Below the pieces are notes generated by a model. It was not told where the DNA came from. It saw only the letters and a program-made list of their open reading frames with translations, and did no database searches. A stretch of 49,523 nucleotides of DNA, from assembly GCA_947488215.1 (NCBI GenBank), contig CANLBD010000002.1, forward strand, positions 1-49,523. Reading direction: 5' to 3'. Origin of the DNA: Myxococcales bacterium (lineage in GTDB: Bacteria; Myxococcota_A; Bradymonadia; UBA7976; UBA1532). The translations under genes and the position numbers were made by a program. Below, piece by piece: positions 21,741 to 24,532 of this stretch (the stretch's first letter is position 1; each line of letters opens with the position of its first letter).

Positions 21741-23189
21741 TCAGGCCGCCTTGGCCTGGTTCTCGTCGTCGGACCGGGGCGCAGAGAACTCTTGCGCGGC
21801 GGTCACGGCCCACAGGGCGAAGACGATAAGCACAGTGACGAAGCTCAGCACGAGCGCGAGCTTCATGAGCCCGACGCTCACAAGCACCATGAGCGCGAGC
21901 GCGTAGAAGTCGCGGCGCCCAACGAACTCGAGCTTGTCGCAGAAGGTCGAGAACAGGCTCTTCGGGCCCTGCTTCTGGAACGACCACTCGATGGCGAGGT
22001 GTGTGCCTTTGCCCGTGGCCAAGAGCTTGCGGTAGAGCATCGCGGCCACGAACCAGCCAACGACGAAGCAGGCGACGCCCATCGTGAGCCAAATCTTCTC
22101 GCCGCTGAAGCGGTACGCCGCGATGCCGAGCGCGAGCTGGTAGCTCAGGTTCGTCACGTCGTCCGAGATGGTGTCGAACCACTCGCCGCTCGCGCTGTGC
22201 TTGAACTTCAGCCGCGCGATCTCGCCGTCGCAGCCGTCGATCATCGACGACAGCTGGTAGAGCACCGCGCCCACGACCAGCATCCACGCGGCCGTGGGCG
22301 TCGCGAGCGCGGTCACGACCGCAGACGCGACGCCGAGCAGCAGGCCGACGGCCGTCAGGTGGTTGGGCACGGCGTTCGTGTTCATCAACAGCCGCGTGCA
22401 GAACTTGCTGAAGCGGCGGTTGATATGACGGCTCACCGGGCCGTCCGTCGGCTTCGTGAGCTTCGCGAAGAGCACGCGCTCCGCCTCGACCCGGCTCGGC
22501 AGATCATCCACGTCTTGCCACCAGGCCGCGCCGACATCCGCCACGCGCGCCTTGCCGTCGCGCGCGAGCGCCTGCACGCCGTCCGAGAGCGAGGCGTCGC
22601 CCTGCGCGCTGAAGACGGCGTCGAGCGCGTCGAAGAGCGCCGTATCGCAGCGGAACACACCCGTGTCCACGGCGTCGAAGTCCGTGAGCTGCTTGCCGAT
22701 CGACGCGATCTGGTCGCGCTCGCCGACGCGCACCTTCGTGGCGTCGTCCATGTCGAAGATCGTGTTGAGCTTGCGGTCGACGGCGAGCACGAGGCCGCCG
22801 CGCGCCGAGACGCCCTGAAGCGTCTGCCATACGCCCTTCTCGACGATGTGGTCGGCCATCGTCAGGAAGAACTCGCCCCGCACGTGCGGACGGGCGCGGA
22901 GAACGCTCACGCCGTTCTTGAGCGTGTAGTCGTCGTTCTGCACCCACACGATCTCAAGGCCCGCGAGGTCCTCGTCGCCGTCGAGCGCGGCGCGCACCTG
23001 CTCGCCGAGACAGCCGACGACGATGACGAAGCGCTTCACGCCCGCGCTCTTCGCGGTCAGGATGCCGCGCTTGAGCAGCGTGAGGCCGCCGACGCGCACA
23101 AGCGGCTTCGGCAGCGGCTGCGCGTCACTCCGGATTCGACTCCCCAGTCCAGCGGCCAGGATGACCGCCTGCTCGACGCGTGCAGACAT
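21741..23189 (-). CDS. Fused sugar/inositol-phosphate nucleotidyltransferase and CDP-alcohol phosphotransferase (IPCT-DIPPS-like)
   Basis: N-terminus AVILAAGLGSRIRSDAQPLPKPLVRVGGLTLL. C-terminus DGCDGEIARLKFKHSASGEWFDTISDD matches DxxDGxxARx8Gx3Dx3D exactly, with multiple TMs. It starts 2 bp after the ino1 stop. Confidence 0.9.
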   Translation of the reverse strand: MSARVEQAVILAAGLGSRIRSDAQPLPKPLVRVGGLTLLKRGILTAKSAGVKRFVIVVGCLGEQVRAALDGDEDLAGLEIVWVQNDDYTLKNGVSVLRARPHVRGEFFLTMADHIVEKGVWQTLQGVSARGGLVLAVDRKLNTIFDMDDATKVRVGERDQIASIGKQLTDFDAVDTGVFRCDTALFDALDAVFSAQGDASLSDGVQALARDGKARVADVGAAWWQDVDDLPSRVEAERVLFAKLTKPTDGPVSRHINRRFSKFCTRLLMNTNAVPNHLTAVGLLLGVASAVVTALATPTAAWMLVVGAVLYQLSSMIDGCDGEIARLKFKHSASGEWFDTISDDVTNLSYQLALGIAAYRFSGEKIWLTMGVACFVVGWFVAAMLYRKLLATGKGTHLAIEWSFQKQGPKSLFSTFCDKLEFVGRRDFYALALMVLVSVGLMKLALVLSFVTVLIVFALWAVTAAQEFSAPRSDDENQAKAA

Positions 23190-23191
23190 GG

Positions 23192-24532
23192 TCAGACGTT
23201 CCCTTCTTCCTCGTAGTACTCGGTCCCGAGGTGGGTGATGAGCTCCTCGCCCATCATGTGGCGCAGGTTGTTCTTCAGCTTCGTGAGCTGAATGAACAGG
23301 TCGTGCTCGGGGTAGAGCCCCGCGCCGACGATCGGGCTCTTCCAGTAGAAGCTGAGCCACTCCTGAATGCCCTTGCGGCCGGCGCGCTGCGCCAAGTCCG
23401 AGAAGAGCGCCAGGTCAAGGACGATCGGCGCCGCGAGGATGGAGTCGCGGCAGAGGAAGTCGACCTTGATCTGCATCGGGTAGCCGAGCCACCCAAAGAT
23501 GTCGATGTTGTCCCAGCCCTCTTTGGAGTCGCCGCGCGGCGGGTAGTAGTTGATCCGGACCGCGTGGTAGAGGTTGCCGTACAGGTCGGGGTAGGTCTCC
23601 GGCTGCAGGATCGTGTCGAGCACGCCGAGCTTGGTCTTCTCCTTCGACTTGAAGGACTCCGGATCCTCGAGCACCTCGCCGTCGCGGTTGCCGAGGATGT
23701 TCGTGCTGAACCAGCCGCGCACGCCGAGCATGCGGGCCTTGAACATCGGCGCGAGCACCGTCTTGACCATCGTCTGGCCGGTTTTGAAGTCCTTGCCGGA
23801 CAACGGCACGCCCTTCTGCAGGGCGAGCTCGACCAAGGCGGGAATGTCCGCGGCCAGGCTCGGGGTGCCGTTGGCGTAGGGCACGCCCTCCATGATGGCG
23901 GAGTACGCGTACACCATCGCGGGGCTGATGGTGGAGTCGTTGTTATCCAACCCCGCCTCGAAGGCCTCGATGGTCTGATGCACCGGACCCTGCTCGATGT
24001 AGACCTCGGTCGACGAGCAGTTGACCATCACGCAACGCTCCAGGCCGTTCTTGGCCTTAAAGTCGCGGATGTCCTGACGCAGCGCGTTCGCCCAGTCACG
24101 GCGCGTGCCCGGCTTGATGTGCGTGCCGTTCAGGCGCTTCACATAGTTCTGGTCGAACGCGCCCGCCATGGGCTTGATCTCGCGCAGCGCGCCCTCGATC
24201 TTGCTGAGCAGCGTCGGCTCGAGCACCTCGGCGTGTGAGCAGGCCTCGTAGAGGTCGCCTCCGAAGATGTCCCAGCCGCCGAAGACCAAGCCCTCCATCG
24301 ACGCGAGGGGCACGAAGTCGCGGATGAGCGGGTTGCGGCCGTCCGTGCGCTTGCCGAGCCGGATGTGCCCGAGCTGGGTGAGCGAGCCGACGGGCTGGCC
24401 GAGGCCCTGACGCACGGCGATGCAGCCGGCGACCACGGTGCTGGCGACGGCGCCCATGCCCTGAAGCAGAATGCCGAGTCGCTCGGGCGCGGGGGCGGGC
24501 TTGCGAGAAGAAGTCGAAGTCTGGGTGCTCAC
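23192..24532 (-). CDS. ino1: myo-inositol-1-phosphate synthase
   Basis: LGILLQGMGAVASTVVAGCIAVRQG, NCSSTEVYIEQG, FKTGQTMVKTVLAPMFKARMLGVRGWFSTNILGNRDGEVLEDPESFKSKEKTKLGVLDTIL, KVDFLCRDSILAAPIVLDLALF. GTG 24532. Confidence 0.94.
   Translation of the reverse strand: MSTQTSTSSRKPAPAPERLGILLQGMGAVASTVVAGCIAVRQGLGQPVGSLTQLGHIRLGKRTDGRNPLIRDFVPLASMEGLVFGGWDIFGGDLYEACSHAEVLEPTLLSKIEGALREIKPMAGAFDQNYVKRLNGTHIKPGTRRDWANALRQDIRDFKAKNGLERCVMVNCSSTEVYIEQGPVHQTIEAFEAGLDNNDSTISPAMVYAYSAIMEGVPYANGTPSLAADIPALVELALQKGVPLSGKDFKTGQTMVKTVLAPMFKARMLGVRGWFSTNILGNRDGEVLEDPESFKSKEKTKLGVLDTILQPETYPDLYGNLYHAVRINYYPPRGDSKEGWDNIDIFGWLGYPMQIKVDFLCRDSILAAPIVLDLALFSDLAQRAGRKGIQEWLSFYWKSPIVGAGLYPEHDLFIQLTKLKNNLRHMMGEELITHLGTEYYEEEGNV

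Follow-up and report, generated by a model that had tools for sequence, protein, structure and literature searches.

A conserved ino1–fusion gene pair in a Myxococcota genome as a candidate two-gene route to inositol lipids

Few bacterial groups are known to have inositol lipids, and for most of them the route of synthesis is unproven. In Rhodothermus marinus, Jorge and colleagues (in 2015) reportedly described a CDP-inositol-dependent synthesis of a dialkylether phosphoinositol lipid. The R. marinus CDP-inositol lipid route is cited in PMC9246714, where an “alternative” inositol-lipid cluster is presented for B. vulgatus and P. veroralis (both of which make inositol dihydroceramide), and where a lysylphosphatidylglycerol-synthase-type gene is placed near both kinds of inositol-lipid cluster. 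A solute pathway uses the same donor: IPCT-DIPPS moves phosphoinositol from CDP-inositol to inositol-1-phosphate, giving phospho-di-inositol-phosphate, which is later dephosphorylated to the solute DIP.

The residues that handle inositol phosphate as an acceptor have been described for the PIP synthases of M. tuberculosis and R. salmoninarum, where binding or positioning falls to R94, S132, R155 and R195, and R155 or R195 mutants lose activity or show a KM for inositol phosphate raised tenfold (PMC6506517, PMC4634129). Inositol-phosphate users conserve R94, the Arg that directly follows the last catalytic Asp (PMC6506517, PMC4634129), and RxxR is an acceptor determinant (PMC4634129). Eukaryotic enzymes with lipid acceptors carry 3–4 extra membrane helices (PMC4634129).

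The ino1–fusion pair and its conservation

The DNA analyzed here (the window, 49,523 nucleotides) comes from a Myxococcales bacterium assembly of 2.7 Mb and 67% completeness, whose near relatives are Myxococcales/Myxococcota MAGs. Two of its genes encode a myo-inositol-1-phosphate synthase (Ino1) and a fusion of a nucleotidyltransferase (NT) domain with a CDP-alcohol phosphotransferase (CDP-AP; Table 1). They are separated by 2 bp (CC), the ino1 TGA ending at 23192 and the fusion ATG starting at 23189, both on the minus strand. Coordinates and Pfam domains agree with the gene identities and spacing given in the original prediction, and Pfam and a motif check bear out the architecture it described, i.e., an N-terminal cytidylyltransferase joined to a membrane CDP-AP with a full catalytic motif (D318xxDGxxAR...G335xxxD339xxxD343).

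Table 1. Features of the gene pair (positions in the window).
Feature	Position	Strand	Evidence
ino1, myo-inositol-1-phosphate synthase, 446 aa, GTG start	23192..24532	-	PF07994 8e-93, PF01658 2e-34 (Pfam)
Fused cytidylyltransferase / CDP-alcohol phosphotransferase, 482 aa, ATG start	21741..23189	-	PF12804 1e-10 and PF01066 2e-8 (Pfam)
Putative N-terminal CTP:inositol-1-phosphate cytidylyltransferase domain, residues ~6-240	22470..23174	-	2XME 2.8e-24, 4JD0 2e-19
Nucleotide-binding signature VILAAGLGSRI...PKPLV (R18, K28)	23097..23165	-	Residues invariant over 22 fusions
C-terminal membrane CDP-alcohol phosphotransferase domain, residues 241-482, juxtamembrane helix and 6 predicted membrane helices	21744..22469	-	PF01066, AlphaFold
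Catalytic motif D318GCDGEIARLKFKHSASGEWFDTISD343	22161..22238	-	Column counts, type I and type II
D344, acidic, at the position of MtPIPS Arg94 (acceptor-phosphate residue)	22158..22160	-	Column counts
RRDFY, residues 425-429, replacing type I GRDxR; second Arg replaced by Y429	21903..21917	-	Alignment and motif counts

The fusion is found at full length in 11 of the 13 genomes of the host family (own genome counted), with a twelfth (G004) holding a fragment cut by a contig end. The two genes adjoin in four family genomes, namely the window and three relatives (L027, L028 and L029) which keep the pair at 70–75% identity, and ino1 is located elsewhere in the genome for most other fusion-bearing members. 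Two incomplete genomes of one genus (G003 and G010) have the fusion with no ino1 detected. Retention of the fusion in 11 of 13 genomes and of the pair in three relatives indicates that this architecture is not due to chance, and the pair is a real, conserved operon.

A promoter and terminator scan gave no signal above chance. The conserved neighborhood of the fusion across the family held no lipid genes, but ordinary ones (a kinase, a GluQ-type synthetase, Fe-SOD and DinB). In the window too the context is ordinary and without lipid genes near the fusion, and includes a transglycosylase-domain protein (7233-9398), a DegT-type aminotransferase (13356-14474) and a CotH kinase protein (16466-18037). 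Elsewhere in the host genome, a second, divergent Ino1-like protein (37% identical; contig C10:14482-17796, L002/L047) is flanked by an AP_endonuc_2 TIM barrel and by an EboC-like UbiA prenyltransferase (183 bits against the EboC model, whose cut-off is 250). The locus resembles an ebo-type cluster, and most family members have a second Ino1 of a similar kind. On a further contig (C51:7561-9203, L049), another CDP-AP gene overlaps one for a MurU-like nucleotidyltransferase, a non-inositol-like pair following the same logic.

Domain relationships and acceptor-site residues

By both sequence and predicted fold, the nearest solved relative of the fusion is the Archaeoglobus fulgidus IPCT-DIPPS (PDB 4MND), so that the relation originally proposed stands: 4MND is the best PDB sequence relative (1.6e-43) and the top PDB structural match (470 columns, TM 0.73/0.85) of an AlphaFold model built from 22 relatives (pLDDT 89.4, pTM 0.85). 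Helices of the C-terminal domain are predicted by AlphaFold at residues 251-268, 275-294, 302-328, 333-362, 365-392, 426-438 and 442-469. The best NCBIfam match is likewise the IPCT-DIPPS model NF041135 (230 bits, E 4e-68), below the cut-off of 580 bits, a shortfall which is weak by itself because the model was built on Thermococcales proteins.

The NT domain matched 2XME and 4JD0 better than MurU (1e-10) or LicC (7.5e-6) in the PDB sequence search, and both sequence and structure searches gave the two solved inositol-1-P cytidylyltransferases as its nearest solved relatives, rather than the non-inositol nucleotidyltransferases that would have spoken against the original prediction. The Arg, Lys and Asp named as the three active-site residues of the T. 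maritima IMPCT (PMC12275187) are all there (R18, K28 and D113), and A12, A13, G14, G16, R18, K28 and L30 are invariant across 22 fusions of both types described below. Family and residues thus suggest that this domain couples inositol-1-P and CTP to CDP-inositol, the intermediate that had been proposed. The backbone of the NT-domain tree is unresolved, and the tree by itself cannot decide between lipid and solute.

Scanning across the genomes gave 80 fused proteins spread over many phyla, and we compared 105 aligned CDP-AP domains, 69 of type I (DIPPS-like) and 36 of type II (the clade of the window protein). In the CDP-AP tree, whose backbone support is moderate (86–94), type I includes Thaumarchaeota, ANME-1, Helarchaeota, Desulfobacterales and others with classical DIPPS features. 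Type II gathers the window fusion, almost all of the comparable stand-alone CDP-APs of Myxococcota, and sequences from Latescibacterota, Gemmatimonadota, Nitrospira, KSB1 and Saprospiraceae; Myxococcota, Latescibacterota, Gemmatimonadota, Nitrospirota and Bacteroidota all have fusions like that of the window. In the transferases encoded by separate genes, an N-terminal domain persists but lacks the NT signature, and three of them have no Pfam NT domain above cut-off. 4MND, entered as a fragment, formed a long branch at the base of type II and is type I by motif.

Alignment-free motif tests separated the two types sharply, even if motif counts and grouping are not fully independent, the split having been made on a tree from the same columns. 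The Arg after the last catalytic Asp (G...D...DR) was found in 68 of 69 type I vs. 0 of 36 type II domains, SYTxxK in 62/69 vs. 0/36, and RDxR in 66/69 vs. 1/36. The window fusion has D344, no SYT motif, and Y429. The catalytic Asp/Gly columns are kept in both types (69/69 in type I, 36/36 or 35/36 in type II), and Arg326 in 30/36 of type II. A PIPS-like protein from the genome set carries LDRYS and SYVRARAE, the latter aligning with type I SYTADKYD, and the alignment suggests that the positions lost in type II match the acceptor-phosphate residues of PIP synthase. Because these DIPPS-type residues are lost, the acceptor of the window enzyme is probably not inositol phosphate, and the enzyme probably not a DIPPS. 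We rejected the annotation-based name “IPCT/DIPPS” for the window fusion on these acceptor-site residues and, judging from sequence, that label should not be applied to it.

Genomic associations and candidate acceptors

In the Ino1 tree, the window Ino1 clusters with Bacteroidota genes (60–66% identity, support 100), and the MIPS partners of DIPPS form another Ino1 clade across a very long branch. The Bacteroidota ino1 genes are followed by a stand-alone NT gene (41–48% identical to the window NT domain), often with a CDP-AP gene in front, an arrangement that corresponds to the “alternative” cluster of PMC9246714; one such contig with a window-clade Ino1 (L225) is almost certainly from R. marinus. 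Type II genomes of Latescibacterota and Gemmatimonadota pair with DIPPS-type Ino1. In a KSB1 genome that also holds a type II fusion (G147), a window-clade Ino1 adjoins a PIP-synthase-like CDP-AP (L214:8100-10239), and both inositol-lipid routes may coexist there.

Across 144 genomes (143 related ones plus that of the window), Ino1 and the type II transferase co-occurred (46 with both, 13 and 16 with one, 69 with neither; odds ratio 15, kinship ignored), and a window-type Ino1 lay within 5 kb of a fusion, NT or type II transferase gene in 26. Among genomes without a fusion, the transferase and a separate NT likewise co-occurred (34/8/6/78, kinship ignored). PF03706 flippase-like genes were beside or fused to type II fusions in 7/26 loci from four lineages, vs. 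1/66 for type I: the domain is fused in one protein and adjacent or near in six more loci, with none near the fusion in the window. The fused case is an 835-aa type II IPCT-CDP-AP protein with a C-terminal PF03706 (LPG_synthase_TM) in a Bacteroidota MAG (L113:2542-5046). Another genome of the host family (G005) has an additional, diverged paralogue of the type II fusion, which overlaps a PF03706-like gene (L043:8240-11048). Three-domain IPCT-DIPPS proteins with a C-terminal HAD hydrolase were seen at L123:7998-10064, L127:2777-4843 and L217:7257-9353, the hydrolase being confirmed by Pfam in the type I fusions of L123 and L127 and assigned in L217 from 59–85% identity; such a domain fits a phosphorylated product and is plausibly a built-in DIPP phosphatase. 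In the host genome we found PgsA and PssA and no PIP synthase over cut-off, an absence that is a weak point given the 67% complete assembly. Inositol monophosphatase (PF00459), considered as a further clue, was uninformative (three copies in the host genome, and present in 14/14 control genomes).

These observations lead us to favor, with fair though far from full confidence, a reading in which the two genes take glucose-6-phosphate through to an inositol lipid, with the fusion as a putative CDP-inositol-dependent inositol-lipid synthase. As known for its family, Ino1 would make L-myo-inositol-1-phosphate, which the N-terminal domain of the fusion would join to CTP; the C-terminal membrane domain would then pass the phosphoinositol of CDP-inositol on to an alcohol that bears no phosphate, most probably a lipid (i.e., diacylglycerol, dialkylglycerol or ceramide). 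Overall, this would amount to Kennedy-type phosphatidylinositol or inositol phosphoryl-lipid synthesis with both steps in one chain, for which neither CDP-diacylglycerol nor a phosphatase would be needed. We base this reading on the ino1 gene 2 bp away together with the Ino1 linkage in 26 genomes and the odds ratio of 15, the closeness of the NT domain to inositol-1-P cytidylyltransferases, the type II loss of acceptor-phosphate residues, the place of Ino1 in the Bacteroidota inositol-lipid clade and the NT kinship to those clusters, the PF03706 association, and a host genome in which PgsA and PssA were found and a PIP synthase over cut-off was not. No phosphatase was found near the fusion in the window, as originally noted, which fits, as none would be required for transfer to an acceptor without phosphate. 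The original prediction had left the acceptor open, possibly a lipid, and here we agree with it.

Several points count against a lipid product: the window transferase is outside the R. marinus lipid-transferase subfamily, the extra helices of eukaryotic lipid-acceptor enzymes are absent from the AlphaFold model, type II enzymes pair with DIPPS-type Ino1 in Latescibacterota and Gemmatimonadota, and PF03706 is missing near the window fusion. Loss of the phosphate ligands would not alone imply a lipid acceptor, as free inositol or glycerol would also fit. An enzyme that makes CDP-inositol and passes phosphoinositol to such a soluble, non-phosphorylated acceptor, yielding di-inositol phosphate or glycerophosphoinositol directly as a solute, would have just this loss, which suits any neutral acceptor, and its six membrane helices without extras resemble enzymes with soluble acceptors (PMC4634129); we nevertheless consider it unlikely in view of the Ino1/NT kinship to inositol-lipid clusters and the PF03706 association of type II.

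A true IPCT-DIPPS, as the architecture had been read originally, appears improbable. The two-domain order and fold of 4MND and the best NCBIfam match both speak for it, but the score is far under the cut-off of that Thermococcales-based model, the acceptor-phosphate positions are lost across the type II clade in which the transferase separately falls, Ino1 belongs to the inositol-lipid clade and not to the DIPPS-partner type, and a phosphatase is absent nearby. The acceptor might also be another membrane or envelope alcohol (e.g., polyprenol or a glycolipid), giving an inositol-phosphate-decorated envelope component and not a phospholipid; motif loss and the PF03706 association would both fit, but with no envelope-polymer genes conserved beside the fusion we see only a slim chance of this. 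It is similarly very doubtful that the NT domain activates a different phosphate (phosphocholine, phosphoglycerate or a sugar phosphate) beside a chance ino1 neighbor. Its fold is indeed common to LicC, MurU, RmlA and GlmU, and the phosphoglycerate cytidylyltransferase CpgD is itself IPCT-like (PMC12275187), but the IPCT matches beat MurU by 14 orders of magnitude and LicC by 18, and ino1 adjacency recurs in 26 related genomes.

Comparison with described inositol pathways

Beyond this locus, we see an even chance that type II represents a hitherto undescribed class of CDP-inositol:lipid phosphoinositol synthases made as single chains (in Myxococcota, Latescibacterota, Gemmatimonadota, Nitrospirota, KSB1 and Bacteroidota), which arose from a DIPPS-type architecture through loss of the acceptor-phosphate site, with the transferase N-domain decayed in most Myxococcota and a separate cytidylyltransferase gene taking over. 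If so, a fused enzyme that activates inositol and not the lipid would extend a little-known CDP-inositol route well beyond thermophiles and Bacteroidota. The residue after the last catalytic Asp, SYTxxK and RDxR would serve as sequence markers separating solute makers from probable lipid makers, and some mesophile proteins that are annotated as “IPCT-DIPPS” and taken for a solute trait against heat or salt may be mislabelled.

With IPCT-DIPPS (A. fulgidus 4MND; NF041135), the window fusion shares domain order, fold, catalytic CDP-AP motif, cytidylyltransferase active site and a full-length structural match. It differs in lacking the acceptor-phosphate residues, in a TM4–TM5 loop about 20 aa longer (YRKLLxxGKGTHLAxEW), in an Ino1 partner from a different clade, and in hosts that are not evidently thermophilic (L062, the closest relative with a name, is a MAG labelled Loclat). 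The PIP synthases (MtPIPS/RsPIPS) have the CDP-AP fold and catalytic motif in common with it, but take CDP-diacylglycerol and inositol-P and keep R94/S132/R155/R195, which the window protein lacks. Af2299 (4O6M) also has an NT-like N-domain fused to a CDP-AP and parallels the Myxococcota type II CDP-APs with a degenerate N-domain; however, it keeps a type I-like Arg after the last Asp, whereas the NT domain of the window protein has an intact active site.

The “alternative” cluster of B. vulgatus and Prevotella follows the same logic of Ino1, NTP transferase and CDP-AP (PMC9246714). There, the putative enzymes are encoded by separate genes with an added HAD hydrolase (PMC9246714); its PF03706-type neighbor (a BT_1521 homologue; PMC9246714) has its counterpart here beside other type II fusions. 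The R. marinus CDP-inositol route has its IPCT and its transferase on two different genes, and this transferase belongs to another CDP-AP subfamily, not orthologous to that of the window. It shares with the window pair an Ino1 (65% identical) followed by an IPCT (46% identical to the window NT domain), CDP-inositol as the donor, and a transferase likewise without SYTxxK and the Arg after the last Asp.
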